Shown in pieces: positions 36,013-47,782 of a stretch of 64,000 nucleotides of DNA (position 1 is the first letter of the stretch; each line of letters opens with the position of its first letter). The notes beneath the pieces were generated by a model. It did not search any database and was not told the DNA's origin. It worked only from the letters and a program-made list of their open reading frames with translations. This stretch comes from Weissella tructae (GTDB lineage: Bacteria; Bacillota; Bacilli; Lactobacillales; Lactobacillaceae). The position numbers were made by a program, and so were the translations under genes. Where the stretch lies: the NCBI RefSeq assembly GCF_000732905.1, contig NZ_CP007588.1, positions 558,001 through 622,000 on the forward strand, given 5' to 3'.

Positions 36013-36939
36013 ATGTTTTCATTCGTCTTATTAGCATTTATTTCTGGGCTATTATTGTCTAATCAAAGCCCCATTAACGCGCGTTTAGGTAGAGGGTTAG
36101 GATCACCATTTATTGCGGCATCATTTTCGTTTACAATCGGGACTATTTTCTTAGGAATTGTCACGTTCATCCAAACGAATACTTTATTCCCGAGCATCCA
36201 ATTCATTAGCCAACAACCTGCATGGATTTGGTTAGGGGGGCTATTAGGATGTATTTACCTGACATCTAACATTTTATTGTTCCCTCGAATTGGAGCCGTT
36301 AAAACGGTCGTCTTGCCTATTTTGGGACAGATCATTATGGGGATTGCTATAGATACCTTCGGGTGGTTTGGTGCCACAAGTTCAACCTTTAACGTGCTCC
36401 AGGCGGTAGGGGTAGGAATCATGTTTACAGGTATTTTATTAACCGTCACAGTTGGTAACAACGGATTTCAATCACAACAAACGACTAATGTCACCACTAT
36501 TTTGTGGATGATTTGGGCCGTTATTATTGGGATGGTATCTGCCATGCAACAAGCTATCAATGGTCATCTTGGTACATTATTACACTCATCTGTTCAAGCT
36601 GCCTTCATGTCATTTGGTATCGGGATGGTACTGATTGTGTCGGTGACACTATTCTTAACCCGACATAACTATCCCTCAAAAGACATGTTCCTTAAGGTTG
36701 AACCTTGGGCTTTCACTGGTGGAATTTTAGGGGCGTTGTTTGTCCTAACAACCGTTATCAGTGTCCCGGCGATTGGGACTGGATTAACGATTATGATGGC
36801 GTTAATTGGACAGGTTGTTGGTTCAATATTGGTTCAACAATTCGGGCTTTGGAAATCAAAACAAACAAGTGTCCAACTCAAACAAATTCTGGGTATTTTA
36901 ATTATGGTCGTAGGTATCGTATTAATTAAGTTCCTATAA
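36013..36939 (+). CDS. DMT-superfamily membrane protein with two DUF606 (YdcZ) domains
   Basis: A 308-residue protein with ten hydrophobic segments arranged as two similar halves of five (about 1-145 and 160-308). Each half starts with a segment like SGLLLSNQSPINARLG or GMVSAMQQAINGHLG, the signature of the DUF606/YdcZ family. The family belongs to the drug/metabolite transporter superfamily and its substrates are largely unknown. AAGGAAGAGGG precedes the ATG and a strong terminator follows. Confidence 0.88.
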   Translation: MFSFVLLAFISGLLLSNQSPINARLGRGLGSPFIAASFSFTIGTIFLGIVTFIQTNTLFPSIQFISQQPAWIWLGGLLGCIYLTSNILLFPRIGAVKTVVLPILGQIIMGIAIDTFGWFGATSSTFNVLQAVGVGIMFTGILLTVTVGNNGFQSQQTTNVTTILWMIWAVIIGMVSAMQQAINGHLGTLLHSSVQAAFMSFGIGMVLIVSVTLFLTRHNYPSKDMFLKVEPWAFTGGILGALFVLTTVISVPAIGTGLTIMMALIGQVVGSILVQQFGLWKSKQTSVQLKQILGILIMVVGIVLIKFL

Positions 36940-40715: not shown

Positions 40716-40752
40716 TAAAACCCAACTTACGCCATGTAGGTTGGGTTTTTGT
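40716..40752 (+). terminator. Terminator after the choloylglycine hydrolase gene
   Basis: ACCCAACTTAC pairs with GTAGGTTGGGT, followed by TTTT. Confidence 0.87.
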
Positions 40753-40779: not shown

Positions 40780-40811
40780 TTGATATCGTTAATATGTACA
40801 TATGATATAAT
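40780..40811 (+). promoter_or_regulatory. Promoter of the ABC-F leader
   Basis: TTGATA (40780-40785) lies upstream of TGA followed by a perfect TATAAT (40806-40811). The 20-base spacing is long, but the extended -10 can compensate. Confidence 0.6.
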
Positions 40812-40844
40812 AAATGCCTAGAAACATTAAAGAAGGTGATACCA

Positions 40845-40862
40845 ATGAAGATGACAATCTAA
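40845..40862 (+). CDS. Five-codon leader ORF of the ABC-F gene
   Basis: The ORF encodes MKMTI. It is preceded by GAAGGTGAT, an 8-of-9 match to the perfect complement of the 16S 3' end. The stop codon overlaps the 5' foot of the hairpin at 40861-40902. Very short leader ORFs of this kind control ABC-F resistance genes by drug-induced ribosome stalling. Function here is inferred from position. Confidence 0.55.
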   Translation: MKMTI

Positions 40863-40902
40863 AATTTCTATGCAAACCTGCTTAGCAGGTGTCATACATT
40901 TT
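40861..40902 (+). promoter_or_regulatory. Leader hairpin before the ABC-F ribosome binding site
   Basis: The inner stem is ACCTGC-TTA-GCAGGT (40876-40890). The outer helices are TATG/CATA (40869-40872 with 40893-40896) and AAAAT/ATTTT (40861-40865 with 40898-40902). The structure ends exactly before GGAGG (40903-40907). Confidence 0.55.
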
Positions 40903-40911
40903 GGAGGAACT

Positions 40912-42414
40912 ATGTCGAACATAACCATTAAAAACATGTCATTTGCGTATGATGGCAATGATCATATTTTTAATCAAGTGAATTTAAATTTGGATTCATC
41001 TTGGAGATTAGGTCTAATTGGCCGCAATGGGCGTGGAAAAACAACGCTACTAAATATTTTACAAAACAAATTACCTTACAATGGATCTATTGAATCCAAT
41101 GTGAACTTTAAATACTTCCCACAAACAATCAACGACCCTAATATAGATGTTACTTCACTTTTAGTCGCTAATGTCTCAATTTCAGATCATTGGCAAGTTG
41201 ATAGGGAGCTTTCCTATTTAGGGATAGATTTTGATGATATCGCTAATCGTACATTTTCTACCTTATCCGGAGGTGAGCAAACAAAGCTGTTATTAGCGAT
41301 GACCTTCATAGATGATCAGTCATTTATCTTATTAGATGAACCAACTAATCATTTAGACGCTCAAACACGTCAGCAAATTATCCAGTACCTAAACCGCAAG
41401 TCTGGCTTTATTGTGGTAAGCCACGACCGATCATTACTCAATACGGTCATTGACCATGTGGTTGCGATTGAGCAGACACAATTACGTTTGTATCGTGGTA
41501 ATTTTGAAATCTATGAACAAGAAAAAGCAGCACGAGATCAATCAGAATTAGCGGAAAATAGCCGATTAAAACATGACATTCAACGTCTGTCTGAGACAGC
41601 GCGTGAAAAAGCGCAATGGAGTCAAAATCGTGAAAAAAGTAAACTAGGTAGTCGGACAGAATTTAATAGTAAAAACCGGGGTGATAAGGGTTTTGAAGGC
41701 GCACGTGCAGCAAGAACAATGAAAAAGGCGAAATCATTGGTTAATCGTAAAAATGATGAGATTGCGCATAAAGAAACTTTGTTACAGGATATCGAAACCG
41801 CGGACGTTCTAAGCATGAAACCTTTAAACTCACCACATCAAACCTTATTGTCATTTGACGCCTTTAGTGTTCAATACACAGAAAATCCTCTTTTTGAACC
41901 ACTATCATTTACACTTAAACAAGGGGATATCGTTGCATTGACTGGTAATAATGGGGTTGGAAAATCTTCTATTATTCAAGCATTAAAAAATCAAAACGCT
42001 GTCGATTATACCGGAACTATTCACATTGCTAGTCAGCTTAAAATCAGTTACGTGAAGCAAGATACCTCTCATTTAACAGGTACTTTACGTGAATTTAGTA
42101 CGAACCATGATGTGTCATATGACGAATTGCTTGGTATGCTTTATAAATTAGGTGTTCCACGTCAAGTCTTCACACAACGGATAGAAGATATGAGTGAGGG
42201 GCAGCGTAAACGTGTTGAATTGGCCAAGTCATTAATTACACCCGCACACGTATTTATTTGGGATGAACCATTGAATTATTTGGATGTATTTAATCAAGAA
42301 CAAATTCAGCAGCTCATCTTGACCGCGAAACCAACCTTATTATTGATTGAACATGATCAAACTTTCTTACGGGCTATTCAAGCAAAACAAATTGCATTAA
42401 TCCCTAACCAGTAA
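40912..42414 (+). CDS. ABC-F ribosome-protection protein, Lsa/Vga-like
   Basis: A 500-residue cytoplasmic protein with two ABC ATPase domains and no membrane segment. Domain 1 has GRNGRGKTT (37-45), LSGGEQTK and LLDEPTNHLD. Domain 2 has TGNNGVGKSS, MSEGQRKR and IWDEPLNYLD. The linker between them (about 190-300) is charged and includes the antibiotic-resistance-domain position. The start ITIKNMSFAYDG and GLIGRNGRGKTTLL resemble Lsa(A)-type proteins acting on lincosamides, streptogramins A and pleuromutilins. ATG 40912 is set by GGAGG; the upstream in-frame ATG 40870 lies in the leader hairpin. Confidence 0.88.
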   Translation: MSNITIKNMSFAYDGNDHIFNQVNLNLDSSWRLGLIGRNGRGKTTLLNILQNKLPYNGSIESNVNFKYFPQTINDPNIDVTSLLVANVSISDHWQVDRELSYLGIDFDDIANRTFSTLSGGEQTKLLLAMTFIDDQSFILLDEPTNHLDAQTRQQIIQYLNRKSGFIVVSHDRSLLNTVIDHVVAIEQTQLRLYRGNFEIYEQEKAARDQSELAENSRLKHDIQRLSETAREKAQWSQNREKSKLGSRTEFNSKNRGDKGFEGARAARTMKKAKSLVNRKNDEIAHKETLLQDIETADVLSMKPLNSPHQTLLSFDAFSVQYTENPLFEPLSFTLKQGDIVALTGNNGVGKSSIIQALKNQNAVDYTGTIHIASQLKISYVKQDTSHLTGTLREFSTNHDVSYDELLGMLYKLGVPRQVFTQRIEDMSEGQRKRVELAKSLITPAHVFIWDEPLNYLDVFNQEQIQQLILTAKPTLLLIEHDQTFLRAIQAKQIALIPNQ

Positions 42415-42639: not shown

Positions 42640-43365
42640 ATGAATACTAAGGTATTACTAGCAAGTGGGACTATTCTTGCAGTTTTGGCTGGGGGCGCAG
42701 CCGTTCAAGCATCAGCGGCAGAAGTTTCAGCAACAACATCACACAACTTGGTAACGTTTATCGCTGGGGACGATTCAACGGGACCAGTTGATCCTACTGA
42801 TCCTACACATCCGGTTGACCCTGAAGATCCAGAAAATCCAGGTACTGGTAACAAGGGACCTTTGTCATTGGACTACGTAACAAACTTTAAGTTTGGAACA
42901 CACAAGATTTCTGGACAAAACCAATCTTACGCCGCTAAGAATGTTAAGTCATACATTCAACTTAGTGACACACGTGGTACAAGTGCTGGTTGGACTTTGA
43001 AGGCCACACCTGGAGAATTCAAGTCAGCAGCTGGAGATGTCCTAAAGGGAGCAACTGTTTCACTTGGTAAGGGAAACATGATCACTGCTGGAGACGCTAA
43101 GGCACCCGAAGCAGTCGCTACAGCATTAACTGCTGGAGAATCAAGCACAGTTATCAAGGCCGCTAAGGGTACTGGTGAAGGAACATGGGTTGACCAATTG
43201 TTCGACAAATCTGTTACACGTGATGACGCACCAAAGGAAGACCTTGGAGCAAACGAAGTTGTAAAGTTGAATGTTGTTGGTGGAACAGCCAAGGCAACAA
43301 GCTATACAAGTGATGTGAAGTGGTCTTTGGAAGATACACCAATGGATGACGCACCAGAGGCATAA
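42640..43365 (+). CDS. WxL domain surface protein
   Basis: A 241-residue secreted protein. Residues 1-27 form a signal peptide (hydrophobic core LLASGTILAVLAGGAAV, cut after ASA). A Pro/Asp-rich linker (PVDPTDPTHPVDPEDPENPG) joins it to a WxL domain (about 75-240). Both WxL motifs are present: GWTLKA near residue 117 and KWSLED near 228. WxL proteins bind peptidoglycan non-covalently. It heads a locus with a DUF916 protein and a larger WxL protein, the standard Csc-like arrangement. Codon bias suggests high expression. Confidence 0.93.
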   Translation: MNTKVLLASGTILAVLAGGAAVQASAAEVSATTSHNLVTFIAGDDSTGPVDPTDPTHPVDPEDPENPGTGNKGPLSLDYVTNFKFGTHKISGQNQSYAAKNVKSYIQLSDTRGTSAGWTLKATPGEFKSAAGDVLKGATVSLGKGNMITAGDAKAPEAVATALTAGESSTVIKAAKGTGEGTWVDQLFDKSVTRDDAPKEDLGANEVVKLNVVGGTAKATSYTSDVKWSLEDTPMDDAPEA

Positions 43366-43422
43366 TCACCGAAATCGTTATATTTAGAGTAATTTTATAA
43401 AAACTAACAATTTATGATTAAC

Positions 43423-43466
43423 AAAAGCCTCCTAACGCCTTATTTGTGCAGTTCAGGAGGCTTTTT
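43423..43466 (+). terminator. Terminator between the WxL and DUF916 genes
   Basis: AAAAGCCTCCT pairs with AGGAGGCTTTTT across a 21-base loop. It probably lets the first WxL gene be transcribed more than the genes after it. Confidence 0.8.
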
Positions 43467-43489
43467 AAATTTTAAGAAAGGAGTCTATT

Positions 43490-44518
43490 TTGAAAACAAC
43501 ATATGCTCGTATTATTCCGTTTGCCATTAGTCTTTTAGTAGGGATTTCTACTATGCCCATGATTAACGCTGACGACGCAACATCAAAAGGTATGGACTTT
43601 GGTGTTCGTGCTGTTAAGCAAGACAATCAAATGTCAGATCATACTTATTTTGATTTATCTATGAAAGATGGACAAAAACAGACACTACCTGTTGAAATTT
43701 CGAATGCCAGTGACGACGAAATGAAAGTAAAGGTAACCGTTGTTGACGCAACAACAACATCTATTGGTGATGTACAATATTTGACTACCAATGATTATGA
43801 TAAAGCCAAAGGACATCGTTTAACTGATATTGTTGAAAAAACAAATCAAACAATTACGATCCCAAAAAATGACACTGTTACTGTTAACATCATGGTTAAT
43901 TCACCAAAGAAAATGTATGGCAATATTTTAGGTGGTATTCAAGTTGAAAAGGTTATGCCTGAAAATGCACAATCAGAATCTGATGACGAAGGGATTAGTG
44001 TTCGAAATTCATATTCATATGTTATTGGAACACAGTTACACTACAAAAATTTACCCAAGGATCAATTTGATTTTTCTCTTGGAGAAATTGGTTTAACTAA
44101 AGTGAACTATCGTAAAAAACTTTCTGTTGATATCAACAATGACAATCAGAAAATGATTAGCAAAGCCAAAACTGAAGTGAAAGTATCCAATGTCCGTAAG
44201 GATGGTAGTGTGACAGATCCAATTCTGAAAGACACCATCAAATCCGGTAGTTTTGCGCCCATGAGCACACTTCACATGCCACTTGACCCAGATAAAATCA
44301 AGGTTGGGGATTACCAAATTGATGTTACGATCACGCAAGGCAAGCAAAAGAAACATCTCGTCAAGAAATTCCATATTTCTACTGAAGATGAAAAAGCTGC
44401 AGAAAAGGATAGTGTCAAAGACAGTAATATTAATTGGGGAGTCTTAGCAACAATTCTTGTTATTTCACTTGGCGTGTTTGGATTTATTATTTGGGAATTA
44501 AAATATAAATCACGCTAA
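43490..44518 (+). CDS. WxL protein-interacting anchor protein (DUF916/DUF3324)
   Basis: A 342-residue protein with a signal peptide (about 1-27), an extracytoplasmic DUF916 domain (about 35-155) with the typical YFDLSMKDGQKQTLPVEISN, a DUF3324 domain (about 160-300) and a C-terminal membrane helix (about 314-334) followed by basic residues. Family members display WxL proteins at the membrane face. The start is TTG: AAAGGAG lies six bases upstream, and no ATG fits. The third gene of the locus follows after 28 bases. Confidence 0.9.
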   Translation: MKTTYARIIPFAISLLVGISTMPMINADDATSKGMDFGVRAVKQDNQMSDHTYFDLSMKDGQKQTLPVEISNASDDEMKVKVTVVDATTTSIGDVQYLTTNDYDKAKGHRLTDIVEKTNQTITIPKNDTVTVNIMVNSPKKMYGNILGGIQVEKVMPENAQSESDDEGISVRNSYSYVIGTQLHYKNLPKDQFDFSLGEIGLTKVNYRKKLSVDINNDNQKMISKAKTEVKVSNVRKDGSVTDPILKDTIKSGSFAPMSTLHMPLDPDKIKVGDYQIDVTITQGKQKKHLVKKFHISTEDEKAAEKDSVKDSNINWGVLATILVISLGVFGFIIWELKYKSR

Positions 44519-44546
44519 TGTATGACAGTAGAGGGGGAATGATAAG

Positions 44547-46211
44547 ATGATTCAAAGTAAATATATGATCCGATTAGTATCTGGATTAATTGTTGGACTT
44601 TCGTCATTAATCTTGATTGTACAATCCATCAATGCTGCGGATACACAGGCACAACGCCAAGCTACATCACAGGTCAAAACAAGCGAAGACAGTTCATCTA
44701 CTACGGCCATATCTGAGTCAAAAGATGTACCAACAAACAAAGAACCATCCGAAAAAACTAGCTCAGTAAGAGAACTCAAACAGACAATAGCTGAACCAAG
44801 GAAATCTGAGTTTCCTGCAGAACCGTCAGGTGATGGGTATAGCTTTTTAGGATTTAGTGTATTTGCTGGTTTTGTACATCAACCTCAAAGCCAGAACGTA
44901 TTAATGTCCGATAGGTCTGTTGATATAGAAGCACGTTTGGCCCCTAGTCACGTCCTGAATGGTTTCTTTTCTACAAAAGAAAATTGGGAACTATACATGT
45001 CTTCTGATGGTACGAATTATAAAAAGGTTGATTCAAGAAGTACTTCCAGTCTTGCGTTTTTTACACAAACCTATGACAGAAATTTAACTTATTCAAAATT
45101 AGGTATTAAGACAACAGGAACTTACTACTTCCAATTTAAAGTCAAAACGCCGATTGCTCTTGGTCTAGGGTCATACCATACTTTCTATAGTGATCCATTT
45201 ACGATTAACGTCGTAAAAGATGAAATTACAGCTGTAGGTATTTCCATTGACCAAGGTTCACAAGGGGAAATGCTTAAAAACGATGAAAAAGACTTCTCTG
45301 CTACACTAAATCCAACAACTTCCACAGATAAGATTACTTGGGCCAGTTCAGATGACTCAGTTGCCAGTGTTGATGCTAAAACAGGTACCGTAAAAGCACA
45401 CAAAAAAGGATTTACGGCAATTTCAGCCATCGCTAAAAACCGTGCTGGGACAACTGATGCAACTGTGGCATATGGTTTAACGGTTACCGGAGGATTGGAC
45501 GATGTGACTGTTGATGAAGGGGATCCAGCTATTTTTGTCATTAGAGGATTACAAACAGATGTGACGTACGAAACAACTTGGTATCGTCAAAAAGGAAATG
45601 TACAAGATCCTAAGAAAGATGAAGTGCTAACCGCAAATGATGAGCATACCGTTAATACACATAATATGAAAATCATGAATCCAACAATGGCGTTAAATGG
45701 GTCACAATATTATGCAGGAATCCAAGCGTTTGTTTCAGCCGAAGACGAACATGGAAATGTCAGCAACACACCAGCTGGCGATCCATTCTTCACTGATACA
45801 GCTACCTTACACGTTAACCCGGTTCCACCTAAGTTTGTTGCAGTAGGTGACTTTGATTTTGGAAGTATCAAAATAAAAGGAAGCGATCGGAGTAAGCATT
45901 ATCCAAAAAATCAAAATATCATCATTAAAAATGCGGGGCATAAAGACTGGACCGTTATGGGTCGTCAAAAGACGCTCTTGAAAGATTCCGCGGGTACTGT
46001 TATTCCGATGTATTTCCAAAATCAAGCATTAACTTCTGACTACATGCATATTGGCACTAATAAAGACGACCACGTCATACATGGGGTCGATACTGACATA
46101 TTGTCATATAAGTCGAACGAAGGTTTCAGTCTATCTATGCCCGAAAAAATCATCGCTGGCCATTATGAATCTGAAATGCAATGGCAATTAGCAGACGTTC
46201 CCAGCCAATAA
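44547..46211 (+). CDS. Large WxL protein with a Big2 domain
   Basis: A 554-residue secreted protein. A signal peptide (about 1-32) is followed by a Ser/Thr/Glu-rich linker to about residue 90, an unassigned region, a bacterial Ig-like Big2 domain (about 228-312, with TWASSDDSVASVDAKTGTV) and a C-terminal WxL domain (about 425-554). The second WxL motif is MQWQLADV at the end; the first is degenerate (DWTVMG, Val in place of Leu). Together with the two preceding genes it probably forms a cell-surface complex used in adhesion or polysaccharide binding. Confidence 0.88.
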   Translation: MIQSKYMIRLVSGLIVGLSSLILIVQSINAADTQAQRQATSQVKTSEDSSSTTAISESKDVPTNKEPSEKTSSVRELKQTIAEPRKSEFPAEPSGDGYSFLGFSVFAGFVHQPQSQNVLMSDRSVDIEARLAPSHVLNGFFSTKENWELYMSSDGTNYKKVDSRSTSSLAFFTQTYDRNLTYSKLGIKTTGTYYFQFKVKTPIALGLGSYHTFYSDPFTINVVKDEITAVGISIDQGSQGEMLKNDEKDFSATLNPTTSTDKITWASSDDSVASVDAKTGTVKAHKKGFTAISAIAKNRAGTTDATVAYGLTVTGGLDDVTVDEGDPAIFVIRGLQTDVTYETTWYRQKGNVQDPKKDEVLTANDEHTVNTHNMKIMNPTMALNGSQYYAGIQAFVSAEDEHGNVSNTPAGDPFFTDTATLHVNPVPPKFVAVGDFDFGSIKIKGSDRSKHYPKNQNIIIKNAGHKDWTVMGRQKTLLKDSAGTVIPMYFQNQALTSDYMHIGTNKDDHVIHGVDTDILSYKSNEGFSLSMPEKIIAGHYESEMQWQLADVPSQ

Positions 46212-46235
46212 CATGCTAATTTCTTACGTTAGTAT

Positions 46236-46244
46236 GGTATAGTT
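46236..46244 (+). promoter_or_regulatory. Extended -10 promoter of the Mga-like regulator
   Basis: TGG followed by TATAGT (46239-46244). Just upstream, CATGCTAA and TTAGTATG form an imperfect inverted repeat that could be an operator. Confidence 0.5.
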
Positions 46245-46312
46245 GGGGCTTACACACAGCTAATGGTTATTTTCGTCTAAATTGTACCTTTGTGAGAAAG
46301 TAGGACATAAAT

Positions 46313-47782
46313 ATGTGGCTATTGAGTACCCGAGATAACCGTAGCATCAGAGTGCAAAATTATCTTGTATCCAATCCTGGAAGAATCGTTACTCTGTCAG
46401 CTGCGGCAATTGAGCTCAATATCTCAAAATATAATATACAACGTGACTTAGAAGCCTTAAATGACATCTATCTCACACAATTTCAAAACGATATTCCTAG
46501 TTTCGAATTTTCATCTGATCACAAAAGTATTCGTATTTCAAAAATACAGATGATACATGTTGAACAGTTGAAACGAGAATTGTTACAACACTCAACAAAA
46601 ATGATGCTGCTTAATTCGTTCTTTTTAGAAGAATATAAGACAGCAGACGCAATATTACACGATATTAATATCAGTTATACGCTTTTACGTAAATATATCC
46701 GAGATATGAACGATTATCTCGCACAATCAGATATTTTAATATCAAATAACTTTACCTTGATTGGTGACGAATTAAATATTCGTCGACTGATGTTTGAAAC
46801 ATATTATTTGTACTATGATCTTGATGAATCTGTTTTACAGACATATTATCTAACCACTGTTTCAGATTTTCAGGAACATTTACCTGACGATATCAAAAAA
46901 TCACCAACGCGTATTAAAACGTATCGCATTATGCGAATTATTTGGTTTTTACGCATTCGAAATAAGCATTCACTTTCAACAAACATTAATTTTATTGATT
47001 TTTCTAAGTTAGAAAAAGTAGATAACTACAGTTATTTACTAGCCATCAAAAATTATGATTTGTTGAACGTAAACTTACCTCCAGAACAACGTGATTTAGA
47101 AATTGAGTATGGACTATTTGTCAGCATAGTGATGGGCGGGGTTAGGATTCCAGATCTATCCCAAGCGCTTGTTCCACATATGCAAGAACGATTAGCACAA
47201 ATTTCAAACGTTATTCAAGATGAATTTACGCTGATTTTCAGGAAAGAACTGGAAGTCGAAGAATTAAATGCAATCATGCAGCAATTATTAATCAGTAATA
47301 TCCAATTGGTGATGATGCATCGAACAATTATTCAACATCCAATGTATAAATCAGCCGATTTATTACTATATTCTGTTTCACATGAATTGTCTTTGAATAT
47401 TGGTGAACGTTTATCTGTATTATGTAATATCAGTATTGCAGAACTAGAAAAATCTCTGTTAATTGAATATATGACTGTCTTTCATCATTTTATTATTGAA
47501 ACACAAGGTAAATATCTACCTAACATTAATATTGTGATTGATATGATCGACATGCCCAATTTGAAAGATGAAACACAACGCATTCTAGAAGAATATGTCT
47601 TATTTAAAATTAACGTTGTCGACAATGACACGTCCGAAAACATAGATATTATCATTTCCGATATACCGCTATTAGATAAAGGCACAACCAATATCGTCTG
47701 GCGAGGATTACCGGATTATGATGATTTATTTAGTTTTCATAAAATCGCTGGTCTCATGATTCGTGACAAACTGCGTACGTGA
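46313..47782 (+). CDS. Mga-like transcriptional regulator
   Basis: A 489-residue regulator. An N-terminal winged helix (about 8-65) has AAIELNISKYNIQRDLEAL, a second HTH lies at about 75-130, PRD-like helical regions cover about 165-380, and a C-terminal EIIB-like fold covers about 395-485. This is the layout of Mga and AtxA. Such proteins activate surface protein genes, so control of the WxL locus immediately upstream is a natural guess. The PRD histidines usually phosphorylated by the PTS are not obvious to me. GAGAAAG lies before the ATG. Confidence 0.82.
   Translation: MWLLSTRDNRSIRVQNYLVSNPGRIVTLSAAAIELNISKYNIQRDLEALNDIYLTQFQNDIPSFEFSSDHKSIRISKIQMIHVEQLKRELLQHSTKMMLLNSFFLEEYKTADAILHDINISYTLLRKYIRDMNDYLAQSDILISNNFTLIGDELNIRRLMFETYYLYYDLDESVLQTYYLTTVSDFQEHLPDDIKKSPTRIKTYRIMRIIWFLRIRNKHSLSTNINFIDFSKLEKVDNYSYLLAIKNYDLLNVNLPPEQRDLEIEYGLFVSIVMGGVRIPDLSQALVPHMQERLAQISNVIQDEFTLIFRKELEVEELNAIMQQLLISNIQLVMMHRTIIQHPMYKSADLLLYSVSHELSLNIGERLSVLCNISIAELEKSLLIEYMTVFHHFIIETQGKYLPNINIVIDMIDMPNLKDETQRILEEYVLFKINVVDNDTSENIDIIISDIPLLDKGTTNIVWRGLPDYDDLFSFHKIAGLMIRDKLRT

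Follow-up and report, generated by a model that had tools for sequence, protein, structure and literature searches.

The window, by which we mean the whole 64,000-nucleotide stretch of the Weissella tructae genome that was analysed, codes on its forward strand for an ABC-F protein of 500 residues preceded by a short leader. The best NCBIfam model for this protein is Lsa (NF000167; 647.3 bits over residues 1–496), and among solved chains Lsa(A) comes nearest (7nhk, E 4.5e-153). As the score stays below the curated Lsa cut-off (750 bits) but passes that of the broader ribo_prot_ABC_F model (445.9 against 380 bits), we call the gene Lsa-type (ARE3) rather than assigning it to a named lsa allele. 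An earlier note, made from the DNA letters alone, had described it as Lsa/Vga-type; the best model and the structural match bear this out on the Lsa side, and its product is a putative ribosome protection protein. The available text of PMC8196190 names pleuromutilins, lincosamides and streptogramin A as the drugs from which Lsa-type proteins protect. The features of the locus are as follows:

40717–40749, forward strand: terminator-like hairpin 3′ of a choloylglycine-hydrolase-like gene, separating that gene from the lsa unit
40803–40811, forward strand: extended −10 promoter element TGATATAAT, read directly, with no recognisable −35
40831–40840, forward strand: Shine–Dalgarno (SD) sequence of the leader ORF, AGAAGGTGAT, with a 7-nt exact match (AGGTGAT)
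40845–40862, forward strand: leader ORF MKMTI-stop, ATGAAGATGACAATCTAA, five codons, preceded by the SD
40858–40905, forward strand: predicted SD-sequestering hairpin with helices of 8, 4 and 6 bp
40858–40865/40898–40905, forward strand: hairpin foot, 8 bp, in which UCUAAAAU pairs with AUUUUGGA
40869–40872/40893–40896, forward strand: middle helix, 4 bp
40876–40881/40885–40890, forward strand: apical stem, 6 bp
40903–40907, forward strand: SD (GGAGG) of the ABC-F gene, its GGA lying within the hairpin foot
40912–42414, forward strand: Lsa-type ABC-F ribosome protection gene, 500 aa, named from NCBIfam models and the Lsa(A) structure match

The leader (40780–40912) largely has the anatomy proposed in the earlier note. 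Its five-codon ORF and the SD before it are read at the positions listed, and the hairpin has the three helices described and reaches the ABC-F SD, with a slightly larger extent (40858–40905 rather than 40861–40902). The promoter claim stands in part: the extended −10 element is present, and a comparable site (TG-A-TATACT) is found in the closest relative recovered, a second species of the genus (G021) with an ABC-F protein 69% identical to that of the window; the −35 is not recognisable, and the element is absent from the list of a consensus scan that demands one. The strand UCUAAAAU runs from the end of codon 5 through the stop into the bases that follow, and the leader stop (40860–40862) is paired with 40901–40903 in the predicted foot, in keeping with the overlap noted earlier. 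This pairing would thus clamp the GGA at the start of the ABC-F SD (GGAGG). In isolation the hairpin is predicted to fold at −15.9 kcal/mol (z −3.82), with none of 200 shuffles doing as well; the complete 111-nt leader does not stand out from its shuffles (z −1.44; equalled by 20 of 200). Among the 31 SD-bearing gene starts in the window (ORFs of at least 100 aa on both strands), this is the only one with an ATG-initiated mini-ORF of 2–8 codons having an SD match of at least 5 within 150 nt. Rfam, at gathering score, returned no match in the window and none to the leader in 18 related loci.

The comparison with G021 shows that this compact leader is real and conserved. There, a five-codon mini-ORF (MKNVI) occupies −67 to −49 relative to the gene, exactly as in the window, with the same 49-nt spacer to the gene, and the two leaders align without gaps at 52 of 70 identical nucleotides; the conservation in relatives that the earlier note had suggested checking is therefore found, with the layout recurring in register. 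The length of the ORF, its start, Lys2 and its spacing are all kept, and codons 3–4 differ at five nucleotides with neither a stop nor a frameshift. Given the divergence of these two codons, position looks more constrained than peptide in the compact leader. The apical stem shows two double compensatory changes (A-U to G-C and C-G to U-A) and no broken pair; when at least four random substitutions were simulated in this stem, all six pairs survived in just 859 of 99,361 cases. The foot is identical but for its innermost pair; G021 breaks 3 of the 18 pairs drawn, and its middle helix is shifted. Sliding the pairing register by 1–3 nt lowers the paired cells from 91.7% to 30.6–63.9%, and the G021 hairpin alone folds with a z of −4.32. 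A shuffle of the 3′ letters was matched in 111 of 500 trials, a test that is uninformative with two rows. Thus, the covariation in this alignment offers good but thin support, coming as it does from one species pair.

These observations bear on whether the short ORF and the hairpin are a functionless coincidence, or whether the region instead codes for an N-terminal extension of the ABC-F protein from the ATG at 40870. The frame from 40870 to 42414 is indeed open in the window. However, no SD precedes this ATG there, the corresponding stretch of G021 has an in-frame TAA, and such a mini-ORF precedes a single one of the 31 gene starts. We rejected the extension on the strength of the TAA and regard this whole reading as having hardly any chance of being correct.

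Short-leader-ORF attenuation of the Lsa-type gene is well supported by the anatomy, by the layout conserved in G021 and by the leader ORFs of relatives described below. The earlier note had proposed attenuation by a leader ORF and hairpin; this is upheld, with the qualifications that the leader is not an isolated one and that transcription and translation, which the note had not separated, can be told apart by an anatomy that fits translation only. We consider it probable that the leader is a compact, translation-only attenuator. Pleuromutilins, lincosamides and streptogramin A halt ribosomes during initiation or immediately thereafter. Transcription would start near 40818 and run through into the gene, since there is no U-tract terminator in between. 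When drug is absent, ribosomes would quickly complete the five codons and leave, allowing the hairpin to form, with its foot (UCU of codon 5 and the stop) holding the GGA of the ABC-F SD. A pleuromutilin, lincosamide or streptogramin A would arrest the ribosome on the leader start codon, and the front edge of that ribosome, 16 nt downstream at 40860, would cover exactly the three nucleotides that hold the GGA. With the clamp covered, the SD would be freed and the ABC-F protein made. That a start-codon-arrested ribosome would strip the clamp so precisely might explain why the length of the leader ORF, rather than its peptide, has been kept. The transcription start, the drug arrest, the opening, the induction, and the descent from a long TTG-leader transcription attenuator discussed below are steps that we infer.

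We modelled the opening of the SD by masking the footprint of a start-codon-stalled ribosome in 24 settings (two species, two 5′ ends and six 3′ ends). The predicted cost of freeing the SD drops in all 24, clearly in most. For the window leader taken from −95 with up to 18 nt of the gene, it falls from 2.4–3.5 to 0.2–1.5 kcal/mol (for instance from 2.41 to 0.19 and from 3.51 to 1.48); with 25 nt of the gene it falls from 3.69 to 3.23, and with 40 nt from 6.17 to 3.89 kcal/mol. The mixed result for the window arises from UUUUGG, which can re-pair inside the gene. In G021 with 25 nt of the gene, the fall is larger than in the window (5.23 to 1.94 kcal/mol). Overall, the thermodynamic support for opening from these models is mixed. 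The predicted weakness of the opening in the window once the downstream coding sequence is included would suit a constitutive low-expression leader, in which the hairpin does no more than lower translation and the mini-ORF either is translated but senses no drug or is a relic. We think this rather unlikely, as the length, start, Lys2 and spacing of the ORF have persisted in G021 despite the five changed nucleotides in codons 3–4, and as leader ORFs are recurrent before lsa-type genes.

The translation-only attenuator that we favour has clear parallels among described systems. The earlier note's statement that short leader ORFs control several ABC-F genes agrees with the available text of PMC10201436, which gives the uORFs as MR[I/M] for CplR, MIN for VmlR and MK[L/Q] for VmlR2. 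The Clostridioides difficile cplR leader (uORF MRI) resembles the window in its tiny uORF and in a hairpin that sequesters the ABC-F SD; it differs in being a 212-nt leader with a real terminator, whereas in the window a U-tract terminator is missing and the uORF runs directly into the SD hairpin (PMC10201436, available text, for cplR). In cplR, according to the authors, the transcription and translation layers act together, and in a poly-U mutant translational attenuation alone still represses without drug and remains drug-dependent (same source). The window leader would in effect be a natural counterpart of this mutant in which the path between leader and SD is shorter. In Bacillus subtilis, the vmlR leader (uORF MIN) likewise combines a very short uORF with an SD-sequestering element and a protein of the lincosamide/pleuromutilin/streptogramin A type; its arrest is at the start codon, with a 30S toeprint at +16 past the A of the start codon, a position that corresponds to 40860 in the window (PMC9226507, available text). 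Unlike the window, where none of these was seen, it is a 219-nt leader with four stem-loops, pauses, an antiterminator and a terminator (PMC9226507). The TiaA and Are5sc uORFs also stall ribosomes at the start codon, going by the available text of PMC12421871. The analogy with vmlR and cplR makes drug induction of the window leader likely.

In the classical translational attenuators of erm(C) and cat, the SD is hidden in a hairpin, which opens when a ribosome stalls on the leader. Their leaders are longer, and the arrest occurs during elongation and depends on both peptide and drug; in the window, by comparison, five codons would suffice for a start-codon arrest.

To place the leader among those of other lsa-type genes, we surveyed 108 such genes (397 family genomes searched, 203 with a match, part of these fetched) for an SD-preceded M-[K/R]-(0–3 codons)-stop between −330 and −50. 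Such a mini-ORF was found in 67 of the 108 leaders; 100 shuffled sets gave 3.6 on average and never more than 8. Among the TTG-started forms, the most frequent are MKN (23), MRN (12), MKI (7), MRI (6), MKF (6) and the two-codon MK (6). The remaining 41 leaders have no M-K/R mini-ORF by this criterion, and some of them carry other tiny TTG ORFs. Only the window genome (G000) and G021 have the mini-ORF at −67, the next nearest being at −144. The window leader thus looks like a compact derivative within a family of mostly TTG-initiated mini-ORFs (M-K/R-x-stop) that precede lsa-type genes.

Could the nascent MKMTI peptide itself be required for a context-specific arrest, as in macrolide leaders? 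A Lys or Arg at codon 2 is common to the 67 leaders, although Lys/Arg was part of the search pattern, and leader identity affected the lincomycin induction of vmlR (PMC10201436, available text). Against this, codons 3–4 of G021 are unrelated to those of the window, and the conservation from codon 5 to the stop is accounted for by the hairpin pairing; on these grounds, the sequence beyond M-K is probably not the sensing element, and we consider a peptide-specific arrest quite improbable.

Across the wider set of loci (L003–L030, L033–L110 and L115–L124), a TTG-initiated ORF of two to five codons (M-K/R-x-stop) is widespread in long leaders. Eight of these leaders (L026, L048, L054, L060, L070, L071, L075 and L076) have a two-codon TTG-Lys-stop with an SD, which is among the shortest possible leader ORFs. 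In the 400 nt scanned upstream of the plasmid-borne lsa(E) (L111), there is no M-K/R mini-ORF.

A protein tree of 47 of the 48 full-gene loci (one was removed by a length filter) groups G000 with G021 (support 100/100) and joins this pair with four loci from the same genus, L003–L006 (99/99). Like the window, L003–L006 have a leader that begins with an SD and M-K-N, a hairpin immediately 5′ of the ABC-F SD and a gene of the same family. They differ in their TTG start, their three codons, the 157–173 nt that separate uORF from gene, an antiterminator alternative and a U-tract terminator. In the predicted attenuator fold, TTGAAGAATTAA and the bases following it pair with a downstream strand, which carries TCTGCAATT or a close variant and can alternatively pair with the 3′ arm of the terminator; the alternative (antiterminator) duplexes are predicted at −11.0 to −14.6 kcal/mol. 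The terminators, which contain a bulge in L004 and L005, lead through 7–8 T directly into the ABC-F GGAGG. As modelled, the L003–L006 leader is a transcription attenuator with its terminator directly adjoining the ABC-F SD.

This raises the alternative that the window leader, too, works mainly by transcription termination, the hairpin and CATACATTTT forming a weak terminator whose folding a stalled ribosome would prevent. Most described ABC-F leaders act at transcription, going by the available text of PMC12421871 and PMC10201436, and the hairpin of L003–L006, of similar sequence, has its T-run just before the SD. Furthermore, the G021 hairpin passes a lax terminator scan, though it is flagged weakly, a result that reflects the four T that follow later. 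In the window, however, the scan flagged no terminator between the uORF and the gene; its hairpin is followed by only four T, starting after an eight-nucleotide gap from the apical stem, and the basal stem uses them up. Nor is there a sequence between the window uORF and the hairpin able to form an antiterminator. We therefore judge termination an unlikely main mode.

We also compared the compact leaders with those of the sister clade. When the G021 uORF region was aligned to the L003–L006 leaders, 0, 2, 3 and 26 of 500 shuffles were as good; for the window uORF alone, the similarity to the long leaders is not significant (43–198 of 500). The hairpins align with the L003–L006 terminators such that 3–13 (window) and 25–60 (G021) of 500 shuffles do as well, figures inflated by the shared T-run and SD. 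These alignments are suggestive of descent by compaction from a long leader, with the hairpin deriving from its terminator, which is the simplest story but an unproven one. More broadly, and as a tentative proposal that falls somewhat short of being probable, the ancestral sensor of lsa-type genes in lactic acid bacteria and enterococci, including lsa(A) of Enterococcus faecalis, might have been a TTG mini-ORF of two to five codons (M-K/R-x-stop) within a transcription attenuator. The window lineage would then have been naturally converted to translation-only control: the P1/antiterminator region and the terminator U-tract would have been lost, and the mini-ORF, now next to the hairpin, would have grown to five codons, just enough for a ribosome arrested at the start codon to reach the SD clamp. 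If true, a related species pair would show a drug-responsive RNA switch moving from stopping transcription to blocking translation, and the leader of about 95 nt would isolate start-codon-arrest sensing from terminators and pauses. Short uORFs before ABC-F genes were already known; what is new is the TTG mini-ORF background, together with the proposed natural conversion. The available text of the literature searched contained no MKMTI or MKN leader for lsa-type genes, no translation-only leader before such a gene and no TTG mini-ORF.

The TTG mini-ORF pattern also suggests a testable correction to the leader assignment of lsa(A), an intrinsic resistance gene. The LsaA uORF in print is MAGN, as a prediction (PMC10201436, available text). 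In genome G438 (L115; leader on the minus strand), the gene product shares 99% identity with the solved Lsa(A) chain across 202 aa. Here, MAGN lies at −325, upstream of a good promoter match (TTGACA-17-TAAATT) at −247, and an SD-preceded TTG-AAA-ATT-TAA lies at −183. Nine further leaders from the same family of genomes have a TTG-initiated MKN at −195 to −207. From these positions, the printed MAGN assignment may be wrong. In the ten leaders (L115–L124), a two-codon reading, GTG-CGT/CAT-TGA, overlaps the TTG mini-ORF, with the SD at a shorter spacing, and may be the one used instead.

Some further features of the gene neighborhoods were also recorded. Directly 3′ of the lsa-type gene, the window (42640–47782) codes for a WxL-type surface protein, further secreted-looking proteins and an AcpB/EbpR/MafR-like regulator. 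Similar-looking transporter-like ORFs of 308 aa, compared by eye, occur near the lsa-type gene at 36013–36939 of the window and at L002:3137–4063; they lie on opposite sides of the gene in the window and in G021, pointing to a partial, rearranged synteny. In G021, downstream of the lsa-type gene and the transporter-like gene, L002:4163–4358 (forward strand) matches the Listeria sRNA rli28 in Rfam (51.2 bits; gathering score 45).
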